57,086 nucleotides of DNA from Opitutales bacterium. GTDB taxonomy: Bacteria > Verrucomicrobiota > Verrucomicrobiia > Opitutales > Oceanipulchritudinaceae. The notes under the pieces are model-generated. The model was not told the DNA's origin. It did no database searches and saw only the letters and a list, made by a program, of their open reading frames with translations. The stretch's first letter is position 1; each line of letters begins with the position of its first letter. The stretch covers positions 1 to 57,086 of the forward strand of contig JAFIGH010000022.1 of the NCBI GenBank assembly GCA_020831525.1, in the 5' to 3' direction. Of this stretch, positions 1,383 to 55,984 are shown in pieces. The position numbers and the translations under genes were made by a program.

Positions 1383-2144
1383 ATGAAAGGATCGTCGAAC
1401 AGACCGGCGTTGTTGACCGCCTTCGCGCTGCACGCCCTCGTGATCGTGGTGGCGGTGGTGTTCGCTGTCCTCGACCGCCTGCGCACGGAGGAGCCGGTAC
1501 ATGTGTTCGAGCTCGTGTCCCTGTCTGAAGAGCCGCCCTCGCCGGATCCCGCGCCGTCGCCGCCTGCGCCTGCATCCGAGCCGGATCCCGAGCCGCTCAC
1601 TGTCGAAGAATTGGAGGAGTTGCGCGAAATCCCGCCCTTACCCGAATCGCCGCCGCCTCCCGCGCCCGAACCGCAGCCGACGCCCGCGCCTGAGCCGCCG
1701 CGCCAAGTGCGCTTTGAGGACTGGGCCCGTGACCGCAATCTCCCCGACCGCGTGCAGCGGGTGGAGCCGCAGAGGCGCGCGGCCGCCCCCCAGCCGCGCA
1801 TCGAAACGAATATCCGCGAGCGCCTCCGCGAGGTGTCGGATCTCCGAGTGGAGGACTTCCGCGCCGCCTCGTCCCGTGAACAGAGCGAGATGGAGGCCTA
1901 CCTGAACACCATCCGGGCCCGCCTGCGTGCCGCCTTCGAGCCGGTCGGGGTCGATCACGTCGCCCGTGTGCGCTTCGAGGTCGGTGCGGACGGGCGCATC
2001 GGACGGGTGGACATCGTCGAACGCTCGGGCAACCCCGTCTTCGACGAGTCTGTGCGCCGCACCTTCCAGTCCATCGGACGCTTTCCGCCCCCGCCGAGCG
2101 GCCGCGCCCATTCGTGGACGACGACTTTCCGGAGCACGGACTGA
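1383..2144 (+). CDS. TonB/TolA-like energy-transducing protein
   Basis: Third member of the operon: a periplasm-spanning protein that transmits channel energy to the outer membrane. The 253-residue protein has an N-terminal transmembrane helix (about residues 10-30), a long Pro/Glu-rich linker (about 45-110) typical of TonB and TolA, a charged middle part, and a C-terminal TonB-like domain (about 165-250: ARVRFEVGADGRIGRVDIVE, then a NPVFDESVRRTF stretch). The domain resembles TolA/TonB C termini; which one it is cannot be decided from sequence reading. Immediately after the stop the DNA is a decayed lyase gene rather than the tolB and pal genes often found in Tol operons. Confidence 0.8.
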   Translation: MKGSSNRPALLTAFALHALVIVVAVVFAVLDRLRTEEPVHVFELVSLSEEPPSPDPAPSPPAPASEPDPEPLTVEELEELREIPPLPESPPPPAPEPQPTPAPEPPRQVRFEDWARDRNLPDRVQRVEPQRRAAAPQPRIETNIRERLREVSDLRVEDFRAASSREQSEMEAYLNTIRARLRAAFEPVGVDHVARVRFEVGADGRIGRVDIVERSGNPVFDESVRRTFQSIGRFPPPPSGRAHSWTTTFRSTD

Positions 2145-27808: not shown

Positions 27809-28849
27809 CTATCTGGAGTCCGATTGTTTTGCGCGCAACCACTGGCGCGCGCAGGCAAGGGCTTCCTCTTCGGCAGGGGAGGGCACCGGCTTGGGCGCGC
27901 GCTTGCGCCGGTAGCGCAGGCCTTCGCGTCCGCGCAGTGCCGCTTCTACAAAGGCCTTCGTGCCCAGCACCAAGCCCTCACTGAAGTGCCGCGTCTTACG
28001 AAGCAGCAACTCGTGTGCGGGCAGGCGGTTGCTGCTCGCACGGGCTTCCGCCGCGACGCGCTCCGGCACACGTGCGCCGGTGCCGTCGCGCTTCGGCAGG
28101 CGTCCCTTGCCCAAAAGGTAGATCCGGTAGTCCGCGAGTGCTGCATTCGCCTCCTTCGCCTGCGGGAAGAAACCTCCGTAGGCGCGCCGCAGTTCCTCGT
28201 CGCCCGCCAAGGCCGCGGCGTAGCCGCACCAGCGGTAGTTCTTCGGGTCATCCACCAGCCCCGCGCGCACCGCGTTGAGGTCGATGTAGGCCGCCACCGT
28301 GCGCAGGGGACCCGAGGCGTCCTGCACGAGCACGCTGCGGAAGCGCTCCGACCAGAGCGTCCCGTCGCCGCTGTGGGTGCGGTTGAACCACTTGGTGTAG
28401 CGCTGCTTGAGCGTCTGCATGAAGGCCGAGACATCCCCCATGCGCGCGAAGAGCTTCGCGCGCACTTTCTCCGCCGTCTCCGCGCGGGCGGGGTCGGCGA
28501 AGAGGGTTTCGAGGTCCTTGGCGTCCATGCCGAGGCACTGCGCGCGCTCCTCCCCGTAGAGGGCGCGGAAGCGTTTGAGCAGCTCCTCGTCACCGCATTC
28601 GCGCGCCTGCGGATCGACCCGCACGAGGAGGTGGAAGTGGTTGGAGAGCACGCAGTAGGCCAGCAGTTCCACACCCGAGAACGCCGCCGCCCGCCGCATC
28701 GCCGCCGCCAGCGCATCGCGCTCCGGTTCACCAAGCAGCCCCAGTTGCCGGGTAACGCGGCAGACACAGTGGAAAGCCGCCCGGTGTTCCGTCTTTATTC
28801 GGAGATGATAGCTCATGGTGTCCGCAGATTGCGGAAGCCGGTCCTCCAT
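27809..28849 (-). mobile_element. REP-associated tyrosine transposase (RAYT/Y1-type HUH)
   Basis: A 346-residue protein with the Y1 transposase core: the HUH motif in SNHFHLLVRVDP, and the catalytic Tyr in FMQTLKQRYTKWFNRTHSGD. This continues into LWSERFRSVLVQDASGPLRT and VAAYIDLNAVRAGLVDDPKN, typical of the RAYT family in verrucomicrobia. These enzymes mobilise short REP hairpin sequences rather than whole insertion sequences. No terminal inverted repeats were seen, and no clear pair of REP hairpins. The start may be at 28849 or at a Met 11 codons later. The flanks 28850-29016 are AT-rich and gene-free. Confidence 0.85.
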
Positions 28850-36604: not shown

Positions 36605-37025
36605 CCTGCCCAAACAAAGGTTCTTTATACTCTCGCCCCGCTGAATCACTGTGGTTCCTCAAAACCGGATTTCCCATCATGGAAATGACCGGCGGGCGCA
36701 TGCGAAATGAGGTCGAGGTTCTCTCGGAGAGCACTTCAGACGCCTCCTTTGCCGATTTTGGATCTCTCTGGTCCGGAAAGGGGCGCGGGCCTCTTCATGC
36801 GATTGCAGTTGGAACTGCCCTGAGTTTCTCAAGACGACGTCCGCCGCGCGGTTTTAATAACGGTGCATTACATAGGGATTTCGGTTTCGCGGGCGCGACT
36901 TTGTCTTCAGGCATGAGAAAGGGCATCCTTGTTTCGCCGCGGTTTTTTCCGATTGGTCCTTGATCTTCGGCGCATTGTCTCCCTACCGTTCCGATATTCC
37001 GTTTAGTCCCCGATTCCCCGACCGT

Positions 37026-40000
37026 ATGAAGATTCCCCTTGCCTTACTGTTCCTTCTTTCGCTGTGCGCCGTCGCGCCGTTGTTTGCCGACACTCTGGCG
37101 GAATGGAATTTCAACAACCTCGCCGCCACGACGACATCGGGCGGCAACAACGAGTTTTTCGACGCCGACGCTGGTGCGGGAACGCTCTATGTCAACCAGA
37201 GCAACTACACTGGCGGGACCAATTTCGTCCGCGACACGGGAAACGGAACAACAGTCAACGCCTCGCCGGGGACCGAAGCAGGCGGATACATTCGCCTGCA
37301 GCGGGCGTCGCGCTGGAACAATGGCGTCATCGAGGCGCGCGTCGATACGACGGGGTATGTCGGCATCCGGTTCAGTTTTGCCTTCCGCTTTGCGGACAGT
37401 GCTTTTCCCGGAAGCACTACGGTGGAATGGAGCGGCGACGGGGGCGCGACCTATGAAACCTTTGAGACCTACAGCAACACACCCCTGACCGCCTGGACGG
37501 CGCTGAGTTTTGATTTCTCCGGATTTACCGCGCTCGACAACAATCCCGACGTCCGCGTGCGTCTGCGGTTCAGCGCGGACGGCGGAGGCGTGGGCACGAC
37601 CAACGGCGGCCATTTCGACAACATCCGTGTCGAGGGTGAATTGGACGACGGCGTGGCTCCGGCTACCGTGACCGTTCTGGCGCAGCCCGCGCGCACCTTC
37701 ATCCCCGTCGACGAGGAGCTTCCGGGGACTGTGCCGGCGACGGAGGTTCTCGTGGAAGATGCAGACGGCGTGCCCGTCCGCTGGGGGGTGCCCGTTACGG
37801 CTACGCTGCAGCCCGGTTCCTTCGCGCCGGATTCGACAACAACAGTCGCGGCGGATTTCAACGGCGTCGCGCACTTCGACAATCTGCGTATCGACGAAGT
37901 GGGGACGGATTACCGCATCACCTTCACGGTCGCGGATCTCCCCGGGCTGCAATCGCAACCCTTCGACGCCACTCCGGTTGTGCCGCCGGAAATGCTGGAA
38001 ATTCTGACCGCGCCGGGAGAGACCGGGGCTTACGCGGCACCGACGCCGGTCGAGCCCGCGCCGTCTGTCCGCGCGGCGCTGCTCGACGGGACACCCGTGC
38101 CTTTTGCGGAGGTCACAGCGAGTCTCTCGCCCGAGCCGTTCGCGGCGGAAAGTACGGTTACGGTCACGACAGGTGTGGATGGTGTGGCGACGTTTGCGGA
38201 CCTTCTGCTGCCCGCGATTGGCACGGACTACCGGATCACGTTTTCCGCGGAAGGAGCGGAGCCGGTGGAGTCGCCTGCCTTCGATTTTGTCTTTGTTCCC
38301 CGCGAAGGCCGTCTCTTCGCCACTGCCGAACGGCTCGAGGCCATTCGCGCGGCGGCCGCGGTGCCCGGATCGCACCATGCGGAAGTCGTCGGCGCCATGC
38401 GCGCGAGGGCCGATGCCGGGGCGTCGGCCTACCGGGGCGGATTCCATGAGGACCGCGCTGACTACCTGAACGCATGGTATGCCCGAGAAGCCGCTCTCCT
38501 CTACCTCGTCACGGATGAACAGCAGTATGCCGACAAAGCCCTTGAAGCCCTCCAGGCAATCAGCGGCGGAGGCATCACCCACAGCAACGGTCTCTGGCGC
38601 GCCGCTGTGACACTCGGTTTCGCCTTCGCCTACGACTGGGCGAAGGAGGGCTGGAGTGAGAGCGACCGCGAGTGGGTGCGCGAGCGCATCGAAGCGGGGC
38701 TCGACCAGTGGCCGTCTTTCAGTCACCCGAATTTCCAGAACCCCGGCGCTTCCAATTGGGTGGCCGTCTGCCGCAGCGCCGAACTCCTCCTCATCCTTGC
38801 GGCGGGCGAGGAGACGGAACGCGCGTCACGGATGGACAGTCTCATTTTCCTCCTCGACCGGCACAGCGGAGTCGCCTACGGGAGCGCCGGGTACACGCAG
38901 GAAGGTCTTGGGTACAAAAACTACGGAGGCAGTTTTCTCTATCCCGCCGCGCTTGCGCTCGAAGAAGTGACGGGAAACACCGCGCTCAGCGCGCCCCTCC
39001 GCGACCGCGCTCCATGGCGCATGATGATGTACGCGGTCTCCTTTGCTTACAGCAGTCTCGACGCCCACCGGCGTGACATGCCGATTTATCCGTTCACCGG
39101 TGTGGCCAACCCCGACTTTTATGAGGAAGGTCTGCTCTCCACGCTTCTCGGGTTTGTGGACGGGCACGCCGACGCTCCCTACTACCGGCACTTCTACGAC
39201 CGTGTCACCGGGGTGGTCTCGCCGCTGCCGCCCGCGGCCAAATACGACCAGCACCGTGCGGGCACGACCTATGCACTGCTTTTCTACCCCACCGAAGGCG
39301 AGAGCGCGGATCCGACCGGTCTCTGGCCGGCGGCCATTGAAGACAACCACGGCGCCCACTTTTTCCGCAACCGTTGGCGGGACACCCACGACACACTGGG
39401 CAATCTCATGGCCGACAACGACCACCAGCCGCGGGCGTGGAACGCGGAAGAGACCCTTGCGATGAGCCTCTTCTCGAACAACTCGCTCTTCTTTCACGGA
39501 CCCGGCACCGGAACCTCCGTTCCGACCAATTACACGTCCATCCTCGTCGACGGGGCGCGGCCCACAAACAACGAAACCGGACGCCGCGTATCCTTTGCCA
39601 CGGACACCGATACGGCGGATATCGTTGTCGAAAGTGGCTCGGCCTACAACCATCTCGGGATGGTCGAGCCGATCCGGAGGCAGCTTGTCGTGGATTTCCG
39701 GGGACGTCGCGACAACGGGTCGGCCCTGTTCAGTTCCTTTGATGCGTTTACCGCCGACCAGACCCGCACGGTGACATGGCATGCCAACCTCACGAGTCCC
39801 CGGGCCACGGCGATCCAGCTCACCGTGGGCAGCGAAGGCGGGCGGGCCAGTTTTCTCCTCCGCGGCAACGGCGAATCGTACCTCAAGGGTTGGGTAATGC
39901 ATCCCGCCAACGCTTCGGTCACGACGGACGGCGGCAATCTCGGCATCCACACCGAAGCCCAGGCCGGCGAGATATGGGTCGCGTGGATGACGGGCGACGG

Positions 40001-40544
40001 CACTCCGCCCACAGGTGAAATAGCGGGCACGGGACTCGACGCCCGCCTGACGGTCGACGGCAGCGAATTGCGCTTCGACGCGGACGCCGGGCGTGTTGTC
40101 TCCAAGCCGCTCGGTATCGGCGATGAGGGAACGTTTGTGGCATGGCACCGGCAACGCTTCGGTGAAGATCCCGCCTCCGGTGACCGGTGGACGGACGATC
40201 CCGACAACCGCGGCATTTCGCTCGGCGTGGAGTTCGCTCTCGCCCTCGACCTCCTGGACAACGCACACGACGGCCTGCCGGGCGTCGACGCTGCTCCGGC
40301 AATACACTTCAACCGGCGTCCGGCCGCCGACGTACGGCTGGTCGTCGAGGCTGCTTCGACACTGGAGGCCGGCGCATGGACCGAGGTCGCCACCCTTGAG
40401 CCGGGGGCATCCTCATGGAGCGGACCGGCGACCGTGGAGGAAGAGGTAAATGGCGACACCATTCGTGTAACCGTGACCGATCCGGTGGGTACCGGGGCGG
40501 ATCATTCCGTGCGCCTGCTGCGCTTGCGGCTCGACTGGCCTTGA
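37026..40544 (+). CDS. Secreted heparinase II/III-like multidomain protein
   Basis: A 1172-residue exported protein, probably a polysaccharide lyase. Signal peptide (MKIPLALLFLLSLCAVAPLF, cleavage near ADT), a jelly-roll domain (to about 210), two Ig-like repeats with the same end (VGTDYRITFTVADLPG, later IGTDYRITFSAEGAE), then an alpha/alpha toroid (about 430-740: YLNAWYAREAALLYLVTDEQ, WRAAVTLGFAFAYDWAKEGW, NPGASNWVAVCRSAELLLIL) and a beta-sandwich like the heparinase C-terminal sheet domain (LFSNNSLFFHGPG onward). The end (RGISLGVEFALALDLLDNAH) resembles a C-terminal domain common in verrucomicrobial secreted proteins. Start at Met 37026; a longer frame to 36960 is unsupported. Substrate unknown. 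Confidence 0.85.
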   Translation: MKIPLALLFLLSLCAVAPLFADTLAEWNFNNLAATTTSGGNNEFFDADAGAGTLYVNQSNYTGGTNFVRDTGNGTTVNASPGTEAGGYIRLQRASRWNNGVIEARVDTTGYVGIRFSFAFRFADSAFPGSTTVEWSGDGGATYETFETYSNTPLTAWTALSFDFSGFTALDNNPDVRVRLRFSADGGGVGTTNGGHFDNIRVEGELDDGVAPATVTVLAQPARTFIPVDEELPGTVPATEVLVEDADGVPVRWGVPVTATLQPGSFAPDSTTTVAADFNGVAHFDNLRIDEVGTDYRITFTVADLPGLQSQPFDATPVVPPEMLEILTAPGETGAYAAPTPVEPAPSVRAALLDGTPVPFAEVTASLSPEPFAAESTVTVTTGVDGVATFADLLLPAIGTDYRITFSAEGAEPVESPAFDFVFVPREGRLFATAERLEAIRAAAAVPGSHHAEVVGAMRARADAGASAYRGGFHEDRADYLNAWYAREAALLYLVTDEQQYADKALEALQAISGGGITHSNGLWRAAVTLGFAFAYDWAKEGWSESDREWVRERIEAGLDQWPSFSHPNFQNPGASNWVAVCRSAELLLILAAGEETERASRMDSLIFLLDRHSGVAYGSAGYTQEGLGYKNYGGSFLYPAALALEEVTGNTALSAPLRDRAPWRMMMYAVSFAYSSLDAHRRDMPIYPFTGVANPDFYEEGLLSTLLGFVDGHADAPYYRHFYDRVTGVVSPLPPAAKYDQHRAGTTYALLFYPTEGESADPTGLWPAAIEDNHGAHFFRNRWRDTHDTLGNLMADNDHQPRAWNAEETLAMSLFSNNSLFFHGPGTGTSVPTNYTSILVDGARPTNNETGRRVSFATDTDTADIVVESGSAYNHLGMVEPIRRQLVVDFRGRRDNGSALFSSFDAFTADQTRTVTWHANLTSPRATAIQLTVGSEGGRASFLLRGNGESYLKGWVMHPANASVTTDGGNLGIHTEAQAGEIWVAWMTGDGTPPTGEIAGTGLDARLTVDGSELRFDADAGRVVSKPLGIGDEGTFVAWHRQRFGEDPASGDRWTDDPDNRGISLGVEFALALDLLDNAHDGLPGVDAAPAIHFNRRPAADVRLVVEAASTLEAGAWTEVATLEPGASSWSGPATVEEEVNGDTIRVTVTDPVGTGADHSVRLLRLRLDWP

Positions 40545-42188: not shown

Positions 42189-42938
42189 ATGAACAAATCC
42201 ATACTCCTCCTTCCCGCGTTCCTGGTCGGCGCCGCGGCCGCCTCAGGACAGATCCTCCTCATGGAGTCGTTCTCGAATACAGATGACCAAGCTCCGATTA
42301 CGGACTTGGACAATTGGAACTGGGCGGTCGACGATGGAGGCGGTTCCGATACGGGAAACCGCCAATTCGGACGTCTTTCCGCCTTGAATGGTGTCGACGG
42401 TGAGCCGGGTTTTGCCTACCAATTCAATGGATCGGGTGCTGCGAGGGCCTCCGTTATCTGGAACGACAGCGTCAACTTCGCGCAGTCGGCCGTCACTGGC
42501 TTCAGCGCCTACGTAGGGGATAACAGTGGGGCCGCCCAATCCCGCTTTCTTATTCAGATCGACAACAACAATTGGTATGTCTCGACCGCTGCCGGGAGCG
42601 AGAATGTGGGGGCCGCGTCTAATTTCGAAACCGGTGCGGTATTGTTCGACCTCCCCTTCTCAACGTTGGGCGCCAATTGGGTGCAGCTCGATTACGATGG
42701 TGCGCTGGGTAGTGCCAGCAGCGGATTTCAGCTTCTTTCAGGCGACATTTCGGGGTCGGCCCTGACGGAGCCCTTGCCCGCCGGAAACATTACCGCCGTC
42801 GGTGCTTACCTCTACGGGCCGAACAACGCCGCCACCCGTATCGACGATTTCACGGTCATCCCCGAGCCGTCGACCTACGTCGCCCTTTTCGGCCTTCTCG
42901 CCTTTGGATTCGTGGCCTACTGCCGCCTCCGGAAGTAA
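42189..42938 (+). CDS. PEP-CTERM sorting-signal protein
   Basis: A 249-residue exported protein with a signal peptide (KSILLLPAFLVGAAAASGQ), a beta-sandwich-like, Asn/Gly-rich body (FSNTDDQAPITDLDNWNWAV and following) and a C-terminal PEP-CTERM sorting signal: VIPEPSTYVALFGLLAFGFV then AYCRLRK. Such proteins are anchored or processed by exosortase in bacteria that make exopolysaccharides. The exosortase is not in the window. It faces the XylR-like regulator and is probably controlled by it. Confidence 0.9.
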   Translation: MNKSILLLPAFLVGAAAASGQILLMESFSNTDDQAPITDLDNWNWAVDDGGGSDTGNRQFGRLSALNGVDGEPGFAYQFNGSGAARASVIWNDSVNFAQSAVTGFSAYVGDNSGAAQSRFLIQIDNNNWYVSTAAGSENVGAASNFETGAVLFDLPFSTLGANWVQLDYDGALGSASSGFQLLSGDISGSALTEPLPAGNITAVGAYLYGPNNAATRIDDFTVIPEPSTYVALFGLLAFGFVAYCRLRK

Positions 42939-47797: not shown

Positions 47798-49963
47798 TCA
47801 ACTATCCGCCACGCGCTCCAGCCGGTCGAGGACGATGCCGGGGGTGAGGAGTTCGGGGAGGATGAGGGGTTCGTCAAGACCGGGGGCGTAGAAGAGGTTG
47901 ACGGGGATGGCGGTGCGGCCGAACTCGCGGAGAGCTTCGGTGATGCGGGGGTCGTGGTTGGTCCAGTCGGCTTGGAGGGTGACGACCTCCATCTCGTGGA
48001 AGCGGCGGCGGACTTCGGACGAGCCGAAGACAACAGCTTTGTTGGACTGGCAGGTGACACACCAGCGGGCGGTGAAGTCGACGTAAACAACCTTGCCCTC
48101 TTCGACGAGGCGCTCGGCTTTGCCGGGTTCCCAGTCTTCCCAGACGACCATGGGGGCGTCTTCGAGGTCGGTGGCGAAGGGGGTGGGGTAGCCCGCCGCG
48201 AAGCCGCCGGCAAAGAAAAGGGCGGCGATGGCGTAGCCCGCGCGGCGGACGCCCTTGGCGCGGAAGGCCGCGCCCCACCGTCCATAGACCCATGCCGCTG
48301 TGGCGATGAGGACGAGTCCGGTGAAGGTTTTGAGGAGGGCGGTGTCAGCGTAGCCGTTGCTCCCCACCAGCTGGCCGGCCAAAACCCAGATAAGGTAGGC
48401 CACGGCGGCGTAGAGGAGGAAGGCCATGCCCTGCTTGAAGCTCTCCATCCATGGGCCCGGCTTGGGAAGAAAGGCCATGAGTTTCGGGAAGATGGAGAGA
48501 ACGAGGTAGGGCGAGGCGAGACCGAGGGCCATTGCGGTAAAGGCAAGGAACTGCTGCGTCGGCGGCATGGCCATGAGGGCGCCGAGAGCGGAACCGAGGA
48601 CCGGCGCGGAGCAGGGTGTGGCCACGACGGTGGCGAGGATGCCGCTGAAGAAAGATCCGGAGTAGCCGGACTTCCTCGTCAGCCCGTCGCCCACGCTCAT
48701 GGCGGACTGGCCGATCTCGAAGACCCCGCTGAGGTTGAGCGCGAAGAGGAGGAAGATGATGATGAGGGCGTAGTTGAAGACGGGCGATTGCAGCTGAAAG
48801 CCCCAGCCGAGTTGCTCGCCGCCCGCCCGCAGGGCCATGAGGAAGCCCGCCAGCACCCAGAAGGAGAGGAGGATGCCGAGGGTGAAGGTGACGCCGTGCA
48901 GGACGACGGATTTCGGGTCCGAACCGGCTTGGTTGACGAAGCCCATGACCTTGATCCCGATGATGGGGAAGACGCAGGGCATGAGGTTGAGGATGAGCCC
49001 GCCGAGAAAGGCGAGGGCGGCCACAACGGCGAAATTGACGGGAGGCGCCGACGGTTCCGCGCCCGCCGGCGTCAGGCGGGTGCCCGCCGCGGCGAGGCGC
49101 TCGTCCGGCGGTTCGGTGCCAAGGGGCGTGTCGATGGTGATGCCCGCGAGGGCGCGGCCGTCGACCGTCCATTCGCCGGAGAGCGCGGCGAGCACGCCCT
49201 CGAAGCGGTCGCCCGTCCCGCCCGCCGGATCGACGGCGAAGGCGAGGAGTGCGCGGTGTTCGTCGAGAAAGTCGGCCTCCTGTGTGAGGGTAGGCTTGAG
49301 GAGGAGGTTTGCGTCGAAGAAATACAGCTCTTCCGGGAGGACGTCGCCCGCCGATTCGATGAGCAGGAAGTAGGCGTCGTCGTCCTGCCATGCCGTCGCC
49401 GTGACATCCGGATGGGAACGCGGGAGATGGCGGTCAGCGGCGGCGAAGAGATCGGCACGGTCCGGATCGGGCGCGGAAGCGCCGTCCTCCACGGTGAGGG
49501 CAAGGGCGAGATCGACGCCTCCGGGGATACAGGTGGTGTCGGTGCACATGAGCCACTCCGCCCGCGCGCGGAGGATGACTTCGGAGCCCGGTTCGGCGTT
49601 TTCCGGCACGCGGATCTCGACGGGCAGGAGGACCTCGTCCTCGTAGACATACTCGACGTATCCGAGGCTTTCGTAGGGGCGGGGGACGGTCCACTGGATT
49701 TCACCGGCCTCAAAATCGTCCGGCAGTTCCCAGCGTAGACTCGGGCTGTAGCCGGTGGCGGTGATCTTCCAGTAGGTGTGCCACTTGTCCTCGTGCGCGA
49801 GGCGCAGGCCGACGCGTGCTGTCTCTCCGGGCCGGAGCGTTGTCGTCTCGGCCACGAGTTCGGCGGTGACATGTTGATCCGTTTGCGGACCGTAGGACGG
49901 TTCCTCCGCGAATGCGGCGGCAAAGGCGGAGAGTAGGGCGATGACGGATGTAATGCGGCGCAT
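47798..49963 (-). CDS. DsbD-family thiol:disulfide interchange protein
   Basis: A 721-residue protein that carries electrons from cytoplasmic thioredoxin to the periplasm. Signal peptide (SVIALLSAFAAAFA), a DsbD-alpha-like domain with Cys pair in EWLMCTDTTCIPG, an eight-helix central domain with its Cys pair in LMPCVFPIIGIKVMGFVN and VVATPCSAPVLGSALG, and a C-terminal thioredoxin domain with WCVTC (VYVDFTARWCVTCQSNKAVV). All six expected cysteines are visible. Similar to the ScsB/DsbD type. Start at 49963; divergent from the macroglobulin gene. Confidence 0.92.
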   Translation of the reverse strand: MRRITSVIALLSAFAAAFAEEPSYGPQTDQHVTAELVAETTTLRPGETARVGLRLAHEDKWHTYWKITATGYSPSLRWELPDDFEAGEIQWTVPRPYESLGYVEYVYEDEVLLPVEIRVPENAEPGSEVILRARAEWLMCTDTTCIPGGVDLALALTVEDGASAPDPDRADLFAAADRHLPRSHPDVTATAWQDDDAYFLLIESAGDVLPEELYFFDANLLLKPTLTQEADFLDEHRALLAFAVDPAGGTGDRFEGVLAALSGEWTVDGRALAGITIDTPLGTEPPDERLAAAGTRLTPAGAEPSAPPVNFAVVAALAFLGGLILNLMPCVFPIIGIKVMGFVNQAGSDPKSVVLHGVTFTLGILLSFWVLAGFLMALRAGGEQLGWGFQLQSPVFNYALIIIFLLFALNLSGVFEIGQSAMSVGDGLTRKSGYSGSFFSGILATVVATPCSAPVLGSALGALMAMPPTQQFLAFTAMALGLASPYLVLSIFPKLMAFLPKPGPWMESFKQGMAFLLYAAVAYLIWVLAGQLVGSNGYADTALLKTFTGLVLIATAAWVYGRWGAAFRAKGVRRAGYAIAALFFAGGFAAGYPTPFATDLEDAPMVVWEDWEPGKAERLVEEGKVVYVDFTARWCVTCQSNKAVVFGSSEVRRRFHEMEVVTLQADWTNHDPRITEALREFGRTAIPVNLFYAPGLDEPLILPELLTPGIVLDRLERVADS

Positions 49964-50065: not shown

Positions 50066-53000
50066 ATGTTTGGATGCACCTGCTTTTCATGGATTCGGAC
50101 CGTCTTCGTATTGGCTACGGTGGTGGCCGCGGGCGTCGCGGCGGCTGACGAAGTGCCGGATCCTCCCTTGGAACCCGCGCCGGCTTCTCTTGAGGAGGCC
50201 GATGCGTATTTCGCGGAGGGGAGCTTCGCGCTCGCCCGTGACGCCTACGCCGCCCTGAAGAAGGACGGCGGTCTCGCCCCCGCGGAGCGCGGGCACGTGC
50301 GCTTCCGTTTGCTCGAATCCGGTCTGCTCGCCCGCGCTGAGGCCGACGGATGGCCCTACTGGCGCGGCCTCACCGAGGAGGACCGGCGCGACTTCGAGGC
50401 ACTGGAAGAACTGGCCCGCGAGGCATGGGAGAGCGGACGCGGACCCGGGCGGGAATGGGCAGCCATGCGCGCGGCGCTCGGCTGGCTCTGGATCGACGTC
50501 GCGGGCGACGAAGAGCGGGCGCAGGCGGCATTCCGCGATGCGCTCGATTTCCACGCCGGTTCGTCCGATCTTGCGGCAGCCCGCGAAGGTTTCCTCGGGA
50601 CCGTCTTCACTCTCGCCGCCGCCGGGCCGGACGGTTTGCGGGTTTCCCCCCGCTTTGGGCGGGTCGGAAAGCGTGTCTGGCTCGAAGATGCCGCGCGCAT
50701 CGCGGAGTCGGACGAGGACCGCGCACGAGCGTCGTTGTTGCTCGCGGACCACCGCCAGCGTTTTGAGGCGGACAACCGCTCCCGGCAGCGGGCGGGGGAT
50801 GCGCTCGCCGCGGCGGTGGCGGCGGGCGAAGGCACCGCGCTGGAGACAGCCGCGCTTTTCGCGAGGGCCGAGTGGCTCGCCCGCTACGGCCACAGCCGCT
50901 ACACCGCGCGCGGTCGACTCGTGCTGGAGCCGGATTTCGGTGCCGCCGTCGACGTGTATACGAAGCTGCTCGAGACCGCCGCCGAGTTGCCCGAACCCCG
51001 GCGCGATGTATTCCGCCGACGCGGACCCGACCGCCGGGACTTCGGGACCGCCGGACGCGCCGGGCGTCCCGCCGCGCTCAAAGACAGGGCGCGCGAGGCC
51101 CTCGAGCGCATCCGGGAGGCCGAACTCAGTGCCGCCGTCACCCACACTTTCAAGCCCGACGCACAGGTCCATTTCACCGTCGGACGACGCAACATCGAGG
51201 TGGTGGAGGCACGGTTATGGCGCACCTCGGTCGAAAAACTAGGCCGGGCCAATCCCGATGAACTCGACCTTTCAGCGCTCGTCGACGAAGGCGCCGAACC
51301 GCTCTGGACGCGGCGACTGACGACGGCACCCGAGCGCCCGCATCTGTCTGTCGATGAACGTGTGGTCGTGCCCGATTCCCTCGCCGCCGGGGCCTACCTC
51401 GTCGAGGTCCGCGGCGGGGGCCGCAGTGTTGTCCGGCTCCTGCTTGTGACGGAGGCCGCGCTCGTCGCCCACGCGGCCGACCGAGTGCTGCTCATCGCCG
51501 TCGACAGCGCCACGGGCGAGCCTGTGCCCGAGGCGGAGTTCGCCCTTACCTTTTTCTGGGCGGAGCGCGCCGACGGTCGTGTGGAGACGCGCCGTGAATC
51601 GATGAGCGCCCGTGCCGACGCCGACGGAATGGCCATTATCGAACGGCCCGAGGTGCCGCGGCGCGCCCGGATGTTCGCCGTGGCCGATACCGCTCTCGGG
51701 CCCGTCGTTCTTCGCTCCATGCTCGCGGCGGGTCCGTGGTGGTCGGCACCGGAAAGCGCGGGCACCCGCGCCCATGTCTACGCAGACCGCCCGCTCTACC
51801 GTCCGGGCGAAACTGTCCGTTGGCGCGCCGTTTTCCGTGAACTGCGCGACGGTGCTTTCCACCTTCCGGAGACCGCCGCGTACACGTATGAGATCCGCGA
51901 CTACCGCGGCGACGCCGTGGCCGAAGGCACGGTGGAGCCAAGTAAGTTCGGCACGGCGCACGGAACGCTCGAACTGCCCGCGGAGGCACGACCGGGCGCC
52001 TACGGGATCGTTCTGCGCGAGGACGGCGCGGTGCTCAGGTCGGCACAGCTCTTTGCCGTGGAGGTTTTCCGGGTTCCCGAGTTTGAGGTGGCGGTGGTCT
52101 TCGAGGGAGCGGAAAGCGATGTCGGGACGCCCGCCTTTCCCCTTGGAGAGACGGTGACGGGGCGCGTGGACGTGAGCTACTTCGCGGGCGGTCCGGTTGG
52201 CGACGCCGAGGTCGAAATCCGTGTCGACCGCATGCAGCGCAGCCATTTTCCATGGTTGGCGGCGGAGACCGCGGGCATGGACCGCGCGGTCCGGGGCGGA
52301 CTGCCCGGCGGATCCGCACGCGTGGAGTTTCTGACCCTGCGCACGGACGCCCGTGGTACGGTTGCCTTCGAGATCCCGACGCACCTCGAGGATGACGCCG
52401 ATTTTGAATACATGCTCGATGTGGCCGTGCGTGACGCCTCCGGACGCGAAACGCGCAAGACGGCTTCCTTTCTGGCCACCCGGCAGCCGTATGATGTGTC
52501 TCTTCGCGCGGAGCGTTCGCTTCTGCGCCCCGGCGACCGCGCGCGGCTTCACGTCGAAGCCACCGACGCCAACGGCCGCGGAGTCGAGATCGGCGGGCGG
52601 CTCACCGTCGTGCGCGAGCGCTGGAGGCAGGTCTACATCCACCAAAGGCGCGGCAACGAGATTTCCGGCGATGAGTTCCGTGCCCTGCCCGAACGTTCGC
52701 TCCTCGGTTCAGCCCGGAGTGACTACCAGCTGAAGGAAGAAGGATTTGTCACAGAAACGATCGACGAGGTAACGCTCACAACAAGTACCGACGGGCGCGC
52801 TCTCTATTCTCTGGAAACGCCGGAGCCCGGCTATTACCGGGCGACATGGGTGAGCGAGGGGAGGCGCGGACTGCCCGTCACGGCCGAGACGGTGTTCTGG
52901 GTCACTCCGGAGGGCGATTCGCGGATCGGCTACCGCCCTAGCGGCGTGCAGCTGCACTTTGACGACCGCGTTTACCGCGCGGGGGAACAGGTGCCCGTTT

Positions 53001-55984
53001 TGATCACCACGGAAGCCCCCAACCGCACCGTGCTCCTCATCCGCGGAGAGGACGACATCCGGGGATGGCAGGTTGTTCGTATGAGCGGCAACGCCCGTCT
53101 TCTCCTCCTTGACACGAAGGTGGCGGACAGCCCGACACTCGGACTCACCGCCACAATGGTCCACGGAGACACCGTCTACGGTGACAGCCGGCGCGTGCGT
53201 GTCGAAAAGACCGAGCGCCGTCTCGACATCGACGTCGCCTTCGATGCCCGTACCTACGCGCCGCGCGCCGCGGCCACCGCCACCCTGCGGGTGCGCGACG
53301 AAGAGGGCAACCCCGTGCAGGCCGAACTCTCCTTCGGCCTCGCCGACGACGCGGTCTTTTCCCTCATGCCGCGGCGTTTTCCCGGCATCGCGGAGACCTT
53401 TTCCATTGAGGAGCGGCACATCCGCCTGCGAACCGTCAACAGCTTCCAGTGGCAGCCCGTTTTCCGGCCCGGCGAAGGCGCGCCGCCGGAGGGCACCGAG
53501 GCACGCGCCGATCCCCGCCGCGCGGACGACGTCTTTGCGCTGAGCCCCTTCACTGTGGATGCTGCGGCGGAGGAAGGCTACTACGCTGCGCGGACGGAGA
53601 GCGCCCCGGCCCTTGCCTTCGCCGCCAGGGCGGAGGATGTCGCGGCGGAGCCCATGCTGCGCACTGATTTCCAATCTACCGTGGCGTGGTTTCCCGACAT
53701 CGTGACCGACGAAGCGGGCGAAGCCGAGGTATCGTGGACGTTTCCCGACAACCTCACGCGTTGGCGCGCAACCTACACCGGCGTCTCCGGCGCAGACCGT
53801 TGGGCCGAGGGCAGCACCTCCGTCGTCACGCAGCTGCCGCTCATCGTGCGGTTGCTTCCGCCGCGTTTTCTCGTCGCCGGCGACCGTTCGGTGATCACAG
53901 CGCTGGTCACGAACAACTCCCCTCGCGAGCGCGAGGTGAGCGCTACCGCGCGCATCGAAGGCGCGCTCGTTCTCGATGGCGATGCCGGAAAGACGCTTGT
54001 CATCCCCGGCGGAGAGACGCGCCGGGTGACGTGGGCGGTGGACGCGTCCGCGCCCGGTGAGGCCACCGTGCGGGTCACGGCGCGGGGCGGCAACGCGGCC
54101 GACTCTGTCTCTCTCAAAGTGCCGGTCCATCCGTATGGAGTGGAGCACTACAGCGGGTTCGCGGGACGGACGGAGGGCGGGCGCGTCCGCGCCGAGGTGA
54201 ACCTGCCCGCCAACCGCCGGCCGGAAACAACAGAAGTGACCGTCACCGTAAGCCCGAGCGTCGCCACTTCTGTTCTCGATGCCCTGCCGTTTCTGATCGA
54301 GTTTCCCTACGGTTGCGTTGAACAGACCGCGAGCCGTTTTTTCCCCGCCGCGGTCGTGGCGCACTCCCTGCAGAGCCTCGGCTTCTCCGCCGCCTCCGTT
54401 CGTGCGGGCATCTTCGGCGGGATCGACCCGGCCCGGCTCCCCGAAAACAACACCGGCCTTGGCAAGTTGGACGCCGTCGTGGCGGCGGGTCTTGCCCGGC
54501 TTGCCGATGCGCAGGAGCCTTCCGGAGCGTGGCCTTGGATGCCGGGCGGTCGCCCTGACACGCACGTGACGGCCTACGTACTGTGGGCGCTGGAGACGGC
54601 GCGGCACGCGGGCATCGAGGTCGACGGCGCCATGGTCGAACGCGCCCGCATGTGGCTTGAGGCGGAAATGAACCGTATCGACAACCGCCCGCAGCTCCGC
54701 ACATGGATCCTTCACGCCCTCTCCTCGCGCTACGAGGCGACCGAGGCCGGACGCCCGACGCCGCGCGAAGCCACCGCCTTTCTCGAACTAATGCGCGAGC
54801 GGGCAGGCCTCGGTGCCTACGGCAAGGCCATGCTTGCCCTCGTCGCGGCGCGCTTCGGGTTCGAAGAGGACGCGCGCCTGCTCCTGCGCAACCTGCATAC
54901 GAGCGTGCGGATTGAGGAACATCCCGACGCCTCCGCGCTCACCGCCGCGGGTACCCGCGGCACGCTGCGCACGGCGCACTGGGGCCGCTCCCGCGAATGG
55001 TGGAACTGGTGGCGCTCGCCCGTCGAGGCCACATCCTTTGCCCTTCAGGCCATGCTTGTCGTCGATCCCGCGAACGAACTCGTCGTCCCCGCCATGAACT
55101 GGCTCACGCGCAACCGCACGGCGGCGCGCTGGGACCACACGCGCGACACCGCCGTCGCCGTCCTCGCCCTCACGGATTACCTGCGTCTTTCCGGCGAGCT
55201 TGAGAGCGATCTCGATGTCGAAATCCGCGTCAACGGCGAATATCTGCGCCGCGTATCCATTCCGTTGGCGCGTGTGCTCGAGGGTGCGCGGGCAACCACT
55301 GTGCCGGCCGGACTCCTCCGCGACGGGACAAACACCGTCGAAATTATCCGGCGCTCCGGCGACGGTCCTGTGTATTACCGCGTGGATACAAAGACGCATA
55401 TTGAATCGCCTCCCGTTGAACCCGCGGGCAGCGAGTTGTTCGTCATGCGGGAGTTCTACCGCGTGCGGGAGATCCCCACGCTGCTGCGGGGCTTCCGCGA
55501 CCGCCTCGAACCGCTCGAAAACGGTGGTGCCGTCGTCGCCGGCGAACGCGTCGAAGTCGTGCTCCTGCTCGAAGCCAAGGCCGATCTTGAATACCTTGTC
55601 GTGGAGGATTTCCGCGCCGCCGGCATGGAGACCGTCCAAATCTTCAGCGGCGAACGCATCGCCGCGCGCGAAGTCGACCCCGTGCTTTACGCCGAAATGT
55701 CCCCCGACGAACGGGCGCGCGGCGTCACCGGCGGCGCGACTGCACGGAATCCCTACCTCGGTCGCACCGTGGGCACCTATCAGGAAATCCATGAACGCGG
55801 TGGTGTCTTCTTTATTGACCGCCTGCCGGAAGGGACATGGGAGCTGCGCTACCGTCTCCGCGCAGAGACGCCGGGTGCCTTTGAAGTGCTGCCCGGCCGC
55901 GCCTCCGCCATGTATGTTCCGCGCATCCGCGGAAACAGCGCGTCCGCCGCCGTACGGATCGCCGAACGGGATGCGGGGCAATGA
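50066..55984 (+). CDS. Bacterial alpha-2-macroglobulin family protein with thioester
   Basis: A 1972-residue periplasmic or envelope protein that traps proteases. Signal peptide (VFVLATVVAAGVAAADE); no lipobox. After an N-terminal TPR-like region come MG-type beta domains (AHVYADRPLYRPGETVRWRA), a linker or bait region around residues 1150-1180, the A2M central part (TDFQSTVAWFPDIVTDEAGE and TFPDNLTRWRATYTGVSG), then the thioester motif GCVEQ with Cys1417 and Gln1420, and a toroid thioester domain. It has an unusual LSPFTV...GYYAART motif at 1159-1177. Usual partner PbpC is absent; a DUF423 gene overlaps the stop (ATGA). Confidence 0.9.
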   Translation: MFGCTCFSWIRTVFVLATVVAAGVAAADEVPDPPLEPAPASLEEADAYFAEGSFALARDAYAALKKDGGLAPAERGHVRFRLLESGLLARAEADGWPYWRGLTEEDRRDFEALEELAREAWESGRGPGREWAAMRAALGWLWIDVAGDEERAQAAFRDALDFHAGSSDLAAAREGFLGTVFTLAAAGPDGLRVSPRFGRVGKRVWLEDAARIAESDEDRARASLLLADHRQRFEADNRSRQRAGDALAAAVAAGEGTALETAALFARAEWLARYGHSRYTARGRLVLEPDFGAAVDVYTKLLETAAELPEPRRDVFRRRGPDRRDFGTAGRAGRPAALKDRAREALERIREAELSAAVTHTFKPDAQVHFTVGRRNIEVVEARLWRTSVEKLGRANPDELDLSALVDEGAEPLWTRRLTTAPERPHLSVDERVVVPDSLAAGAYLVEVRGGGRSVVRLLLVTEAALVAHAADRVLLIAVDSATGEPVPEAEFALTFFWAERADGRVETRRESMSARADADGMAIIERPEVPRRARMFAVADTALGPVVLRSMLAAGPWWSAPESAGTRAHVYADRPLYRPGETVRWRAVFRELRDGAFHLPETAAYTYEIRDYRGDAVAEGTVEPSKFGTAHGTLELPAEARPGAYGIVLREDGAVLRSAQLFAVEVFRVPEFEVAVVFEGAESDVGTPAFPLGETVTGRVDVSYFAGGPVGDAEVEIRVDRMQRSHFPWLAAETAGMDRAVRGGLPGGSARVEFLTLRTDARGTVAFEIPTHLEDDADFEYMLDVAVRDASGRETRKTASFLATRQPYDVSLRAERSLLRPGDRARLHVEATDANGRGVEIGGRLTVVRERWRQVYIHQRRGNEISGDEFRALPERSLLGSARSDYQLKEEGFVTETIDEVTLTTSTDGRALYSLETPEPGYYRATWVSEGRRGLPVTAETVFWVTPEGDSRIGYRPSGVQLHFDDRVYRAGEQVPVLITTEAPNRTVLLIRGEDDIRGWQVVRMSGNARLLLLDTKVADSPTLGLTATMVHGDTVYGDSRRVRVEKTERRLDIDVAFDARTYAPRAAATATLRVRDEEGNPVQAELSFGLADDAVFSLMPRRFPGIAETFSIEERHIRLRTVNSFQWQPVFRPGEGAPPEGTEARADPRRADDVFALSPFTVDAAAEEGYYAARTESAPALAFAARAEDVAAEPMLRTDFQSTVAWFPDIVTDEAGEAEVSWTFPDNLTRWRATYTGVSGADRWAEGSTSVVTQLPLIVRLLPPRFLVAGDRSVITALVTNNSPREREVSATARIEGALVLDGDAGKTLVIPGGETRRVTWAVDASAPGEATVRVTARGGNAADSVSLKVPVHPYGVEHYSGFAGRTEGGRVRAEVNLPANRRPETTEVTVTVSPSVATSVLDALPFLIEFPYGCVEQTASRFFPAAVVAHSLQSLGFSAASVRAGIFGGIDPARLPENNTGLGKLDAVVAAGLARLADAQEPSGAWPWMPGGRPDTHVTAYVLWALETARHAGIEVDGAMVERARMWLEAEMNRIDNRPQLRTWILHALSSRYEATEAGRPTPREATAFLELMRERAGLGAYGKAMLALVAARFGFEEDARLLLRNLHTSVRIEEHPDASALTAAGTRGTLRTAHWGRSREWWNWWRSPVEATSFALQAMLVVDPANELVVPAMNWLTRNRTAARWDHTRDTAVAVLALTDYLRLSGELESDLDVEIRVNGEYLRRVSIPLARVLEGARATTVPAGLLRDGTNTVEIIRRSGDGPVYYRVDTKTHIESPPVEPAGSELFVMREFYRVREIPTLLRGFRDRLEPLENGGAVVAGERVEVVLLLEAKADLEYLVVEDFRAAGMETVQIFSGERIAAREVDPVLYAEMSPDERARGVTGGATARNPYLGRTVGTYQEIHERGGVFFIDRLPEGTWELRYRLRAETPGAFEVLPGRASAMYVPRIRGNSASAAVRIAERDAGQ

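Follow-up and report, generated by a model that had tools for sequence, protein, structure and literature searches.

Background

According to published work (PMC4498604), cleavage of the disordered bait of the alpha-2-macroglobulin (A2M) of Escherichia coli untethers the bait and exposes the thioester. The roles proposed for bacterial A2Ms derive from a few host-associated proteobacteria, and the question at stake is what these proteins protect and at which site of the envelope they work. Here we describe an A2M gene in a stretch of 57,086 nucleotides, called the window throughout, from an Opitutales bacterium of the phylum Verrucomicrobiota (assembly GCA_020831525.1, contig JAFIGH010000022.1, positions 1 to 57,086 of the forward strand). 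As judged from sequence, its bait holds a segment homologous to the N-terminus of TonB-dependent receptors (TBDRs). The thioester (Type I) A2Ms of E. coli (YfhM/ECAM) and Salmonella (PMC4498604, PMC5764988) resemble the window protein, with the domains MG2, BRD, A2M, TED and bMG10, a CxEQ motif and a disordered bait ahead of a conserved strand.

The A2M and its bait loop

By its domains the window protein is an ordinary thioester A2M and not a receptor, with neither plug nor barrel. Five Pfam models score above cut-off and stand in the order found in thioester A2Ms: MG2 (residues 568-654, E=3.9e-20), A2M_BRD (961-1100, E=3.7e-7), A2M (1205-1292, E=5e-13), TED_complement (1404-1705, E=1.2e-10) and bMG10 (1811-1952, E=1.3e-17). 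The CxEQ thioester motif is present as PYGCVEQ, and the relatives in PDB are human A2M and E. coli YfhM. The Pfam scan gave no match to Plug (PF07715), and no beta-barrel family was found in the protein by the Pfam and NCBIfam scans. It is the sole A2M detected in its genome. The features of the gene are as follows.

50066..55984, + strand: thioester A2M of 1972 amino acids (open reading frame (ORF) translation; signal-peptide-like N-terminus; MG2, bait-region domain, A2M domain, thioester domain and bMG10)
53405..53662, + strand: predicted disordered bait loop, residues 1114-1199 (AlphaFold2 confidence score, pLDDT, <50; directly ahead of the strand aligned to human VRKYFPETW)
53525..53596, + strand: putative TBDR-derived TonB-box segment DDVFALSPFTVDAAAEEGYYAART, residues 1154-1177 (TBDR-only profile; BLAST; retained in two congeners)
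53531..53557, + strand: putative TonB-box core VFALSPFTV, residues 1156-1164 (key positions in 8 of 8 divergent second-lineage Opitutales A2Ms; low pN/pS, few codons)
53660..53701, + strand: conserved post-bait strand RTDFQSTVAWFPDI (aligned to human A2M VRKYFPETW; runs into the Pfam A2M match at 1205)
54305..54328, + strand: thioester motif PYGCVEQT, residues 1414-1421 (aligned to human PYGCGEQ; within the TED_complement match)

A first-pass annotation of the window had remarked that LSPFTVDAAAEEGYYAART (residues 1159-1177, nucleotides 53540-53596) resembles the start of TBDRs and lies where a bait would be, ahead of a conserved segment. The ORF translation agrees, and the full match to a TBDR N-terminus starts slightly earlier, at D1154. 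LSPFTVDAAAEEGYYAART sits between A2M_BRD (961-1100) and the A2M domain (1205-1292), just ahead of RTDFQSTVAWFPD, which aligns to VRKYFPETW of human A2M, the strand after the human bait region. The AlphaFold2 model of the bait covers 380 residues and was built from 23 sequences, the alignments being shallow for all models; residues 1114-1199 (model 181-266) have a pLDDT below 50 and the domains on either side are well folded. The motif is placed in the bait and not in a macroglobulin domain because of the alignment to the human strand and the low pLDDT between folded domains, and the burial in a standard macroglobulin domain that the annotation had named as a possible objection was not seen. 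Within the window genus the ratio of non-synonymous to synonymous polymorphism (pN/pS) is 0.13-0.25 in the core and 0.20-0.29 over the motif, compared with 0.34-0.48 in the remaining bait and 0.20-0.23 in the gene; the motif values come from few codons and are of supportive value only.

Relation to TonB-dependent receptors

In the genome of the window (5.3 Mb, 184 contigs) there are 27 matches to Plug and 13 to TonB_C. Most of its TBDRs have, directly behind the signal peptide, a run of acidic residues and V[FY]xLxxFxV, followed by GYxAxxxxSGTR and the plug. A DNA pattern for the motif matches the 5.3-Mb genome four times: three of the sites encode the mature N-termini of TBDRs and the fourth lies in the window A2M. 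The reversed control has no match. A TBDR-only profile was made from 13 receptor starts of the genome, with the A2M excluded, and was run against all six frames of the whole genome. It finds the window A2M at a genome-wide E=6.6e-8, with 28.2 bits against 6.7 for the best of 2160 shuffled A2Ms, and the A2Ms of the same genus at E=2.3e-7 and 5.1e-5. With BLAST, the window segment matches a TBDR N-terminus at E=1.2e-5 (58% over 24 amino acids). These comparisons confirm that the segment is homologous to the TBDR N-terminus, TonB box and plug start, and does not merely resemble it, which carries the first-pass remark on a receptor-like motif a step further.

When the profile was applied to seven genomes, the remaining significant matches were TBDR-length ORFs and A2Ms (about 30 loci were inspected and the rest classed by length), the others being weak or cut off. 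The single clear non-receptor exception, of 2119 amino acids, proved to be another A2M whose bait contains the motif. Since the significant matches are confined to these two kinds of ORF, a role of the motif as a general periplasmic signal across protein types was rejected.

Two side observations were made in the same genome. One of the TonB_C matches lies in the window (1962-2111, + strand), inside an ORF of 274 amino acids. An RHS/YD-repeat protein (L119, contig C136, about 27869-27913) has VHQLPDFYVHARDE after its repeat core, which is weakly TonB-box-like (E=0.46) and may be due to chance.

A2Ms of Opitutales

The motif is retained in three of three A2Ms of the window genus and is graded in relatives beyond it; the loss from orthologues that the first-pass annotation had allowed for did not occur. 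The two congeneric versions read DDEIFELSPFTVESVADAGYLAAP and EAIYDLSPFTVDAAAEEGYFAART. An A2M from another genus of the family has EESFELSAFELGAAPEPSMQSIAGTRMRTDL, in which the receptor's GTRxRTDL is preserved, and those from two further families of the order have DQVVLSPFEINSPGVSMGYASG and ERIEALSPFETEMVGFASTTQSTLAGSRLQT. In many further A2Ms of the class the bait position is without such a motif, and on the tree of the window-type lineage the motif requires three changes.

A second A2M lineage, common in Bacteroidota, is present in Opitutales too and also carries the motif. The scan of genome contigs for close relatives gave none with the window protein alone and was rerun with an alignment of second-lineage A2Ms. 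One Opitutales genome (G137) encodes a Bacteroidota-type second A2M (L117:775-6906, - strand) alongside a window-type A2M, with the LSPF segment in both baits. The second-lineage Opitutales A2Ms contain receptor N-termini of graded length: the bait of L137 matches a receptor over 78 amino acids with 56% identity (E=5e-22), that of L127 over 72 amino acids (E=1e-17), and the Ereboglobus-type A2Ms (L140 and L183) include most of a plug from a different receptor subfamily (BLAST E=3e-11). In eight divergent second-lineage Opitutales A2Ms the acidic, L, F and aliphatic positions of the core are each kept in 8/8, and the bait on either side is variable and partly unalignable. Folding of the insert as a plug was considered and rejected, as AlphaFold predicts disorder for the longest Opitutales insert (L137; shallow alignment).

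A2Ms of Bacteroidota

The sample comprised 80 loci from many phyla, 198 Chitinophagales genomes and 119 Flavobacteriales genomes, and several of the Bacteroidota counts were made by eye. In A2Ms of Bacteroidota this bait slot holds a TonB box of the SusC type (LDEVVVVGYGTQKK), the phylum's own form. The box reads LDEVVVVGYGTQKKRAITGAVTS in Niabella and NEVVVVGYGATKRKDLIGDTARALQGRVAGIAV in Ferruginibacter, with EEVVV or DEVVV variants elsewhere, and receptors in the same genomes read, for example, LDEVVVIGYGTQKKSDLTGAV. Second-lineage A2Ms were found in 22 of the 119 Flavobacteriales genomes; an EEVVV-type box was recognised by eye in 16/21, and 11/21 score above 6 bits against 3/2100 shuffled. 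Two Flavobacteriales A2Ms (L341 and L356) have CarbopepD_reg_2, the TonB box and Plug within the bait slot, with Plug above cut-off at 2e-7 and 1e-8. In L341 the NCBIfam SusC model TIGR04056 matches at positions 3-219 of 981 (E=5e-64) and stops ahead of the barrel; its score in the Flavobacteriales A2M falls short of the family cut-off, which is expected of a sequence that lacks the barrel. The longer receptor versions and the different TonB box of Bacteroidota A2Ms are thus confirmed by sequence comparison, and go beyond what the first-pass annotation had described. The planctomycete A2Ms sampled have baits rich in Ala, Met and Gly with no recognisable box.

Other elements were also noticed in these slots. 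A plug fragment LxGRxAGVxV stands in L230, L266, L324, L343 and L346-L351, often ahead of the TonB box, which is the reverse of the SusC order. The bait slots of L344 and L345, and also of L319, L342 and L343, contain DxDxDGxxD repeats that are calcium-binding-like or thrombospondin type-3-like (DIDGDGIANSDDACPTVPGTAEYKGCP).

Statistics and phylogeny

Slot statistics were calculated for 231 distinct A2Ms, the Flavobacteriales set excluded, with a threshold of 6 bits. The Verrucomicrobiota profile reaches it in 12/231 slots, all from Verrucomicrobiota, in 1/4620 shuffled slots and in 6/2130 other A2M segments; the off-slot matches examined are the macroglobulin stretch PFEVxVxxDRGYY. The corresponding values for the Bacteroidota profile are 9/231 (all Bacteroidota), 0/4620 and 0/2130. 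Each profile matches its own phylum only, no slot has both at 6 bits, and the matches of either profile that are clearly over the shuffled maximum fall in the bait slot.

In BLAST comparisons with receptors at E<=0.01, 23/231 slots had a match, against one when the slots were reversed and four and one for the neighbouring segments. In all 15 slots with E<1e-3 to TBDRs, two of which belong to near-identical proteins, the match opens at the TonB box (offset -28 to +1). Although the box and the beginning of the plug account for a small fraction of a receptor, they are the source of all 15 strong matches; pieces of the receptor barrel appear in baits as a few weak matches (E about 0.002-0.009). 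On the tree of second-lineage A2Ms (FastTree) the strict label needs at least nine changes and the wider label 15, gains and losses not being distinguished.

Three other genes of the window may be mentioned. A DsbD-like thiol:disulfide interchange protein (47798-49963, - strand) is divergent and adjoins the A2M gene, an ORF of 1194 amino acids (36960-40544, + strand) has no Pfam match, and a protein at 42189-42938 (+ strand) has a C-terminal PEP-CTERM sorting motif (Pfam 1.7e-4).

Discussion

The sequence comparisons show homology, a bait position and predicted disorder; they also show that the feature recurs in two phyla, each with its own box, and that the core is retained. Against this background it is slightly better than an even chance that the bait of the A2M is a TonB-docking segment, bound at the box by the C-terminal domain of a TonB protein. 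This is the simplest reading because the core persists, the version matches the phylum of the host, and in its fullest form the insert is a whole periplasm-facing SusC N-terminus without the barrel. The repeated presence of TonB boxes in two phyla points to a link between the trap and the TonB energy-transfer machine. In the proposed mechanism, the window A2M would be periplasmic, and its bait loop would carry a segment taken from a TBDR N-terminus and centred on the TonB box. Binding of this box by the TonB C-terminal domain would keep the trap close to TonB-ExbBD complexes and to the receptors that these complexes open. The bait would then be a TonB handle and a trigger at once: on cleavage of the loop by a protease, the tether would come loose and the thioester trap would be set off. 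The least certain part is that TonB, beyond anchoring, pulls on the bait to prime or reset the trap. A more tentative extension, which we think possible but rather doubtful, is an energised trap in which TonB-ExbBD, powered by the proton motive force, grips and pulls the bait. The inhibitor would thereby be stationed at the receptor gates, and the machine that opens them would also arm, reset or trigger it; repeated capture of the local TonB box would have tied this innate-immunity-like protein to TonB in at least two phyla.

Several points weigh against TonB docking. The name TonB box for VxxLSPFxV in verrucomicrobial receptors is presumptive, being based on its position after the signal peptide and ahead of the plug. 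The majority of A2Ms in the same families have no box, and it is therefore dispensable for A2M function. The genes around the A2M gene show no conservation, and a conserved neighbourhood with TonB or receptors was not seen among the 80 loci examined for neighbours; a receptor-like ORF lay near the A2M at 3/80, as expected for so common a family. The Plug match of the Ereboglobus-type A2M (1.7e-4) is slightly under the Pfam cut-off. Some Bacteroidota slots hold the plug fragment LxGRAAGV with or without the box, or in swapped order, and docking alone is insufficient to explain these.

Because of the same slots, where LxGRAAGV stands instead of or beside the box, a decoy bait remains viable, although we regard it as unlikely. 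The loop would then mimic the plug of TBDRs and the flexible N-terminus that they expose to the periplasm, proteases that attack receptors would cut it and be trapped, and TonB would be uninvolved. The segment is located exactly where a protease cuts in the bait mechanism (PMC4498604). The bait is predicted to be disordered even in the long versions, and phylum-specific receptors would give phylum-specific versions of a decoy as well. However, the best conserved part is the core of the TonB box and not the remaining N-terminus, which favours contact with TonB over a receptor-mimicking bait, and the whole carboxypeptidase-like domain and plug in Flavobacteriales baits exceed what a cleavage site needs. 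Moreover, we are not aware of any protease with specificity for the N-termini of TBDRs.

Neutral capture, where a bait that tolerates nearly any flexible sequence picks up functionless copies from the most numerous gene family, is improbable. TBDRs are indeed abundant, with 27 Plug matches here and 20-91 in seven Bacteroidota genomes, and the patchy presence of the motif (at least nine changes on one A2M tree, three on the other) would agree with it. Its likelihood is lowered by the fact that one and the same receptor end is captured every time: 15/15 strong matches come from the TonB-box end, whereas random fragments would be mostly barrel, and the core is retained across A2Ms with variable, partly unalignable flanks.

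Chance or convergence of a short motif, to which the 24 amino acids of the window match might point, is refuted by the genome-wide profile E=6.6e-8, shuffles without a comparable score, and the long, clear-cut homologues in the corresponding position of other A2Ms, from matches that run through the plug start over 78 amino acids (E=5e-22) up to a complete SusC N-terminus. The first-pass interpretation was therefore sound as to the TBDR segment, its place in the bait, its retention in orthologues and its exposure, and has to be given up as to plain convergence.

The segment would be, to our knowledge, the first TonB-box segment of such kind outside outer-membrane transporters, captured repeatedly and always in the version of the host phylum. 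A TonB box in the bait would predict TonB as the partner, the periplasmic face of TBDRs as the place, and the core L and F as residues whose mutation can be tested. A literature search, with most subscription journals outside its reach, gave no report linking a macroglobulin to a TonB box, a plug domain or TonB dependence. Automated domain databases may already list the combination of A2M and Plug in Bacteroidota.

Comparison with known systems

The accessible parts of the papers on the E. coli and Salmonella A2Ms (PMC4498604, PMC5764988) do not mention a TonB-box bait. Unlike YfhM/ECAM and the Salmonella A2M, the window protein has a bait with a putative TBDR-derived TonB-box segment, a lipobox was not seen in it, and a PBP1C gene is not adjacent. 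With verrucomicrobial TBDRs, which start with VxxLSPFxV...GYxAxxTxxGTR, it shares the same segment (58% over 24 amino acids in the window A2M and 56% over 78 in a relative). It differs from them in having no plug match or beta-barrel, and the segment is internal and not at the mature N-terminus. Bacteroidota A2M baits share the TonB box with the TonB-linked receptors of the SusC/RagA family (TIGR04056), and some have the whole of CarbopepD_reg_2, box and Plug, but unlike the receptors the A2M copy spans only positions 3-219 of the 981 in TIGR04056.
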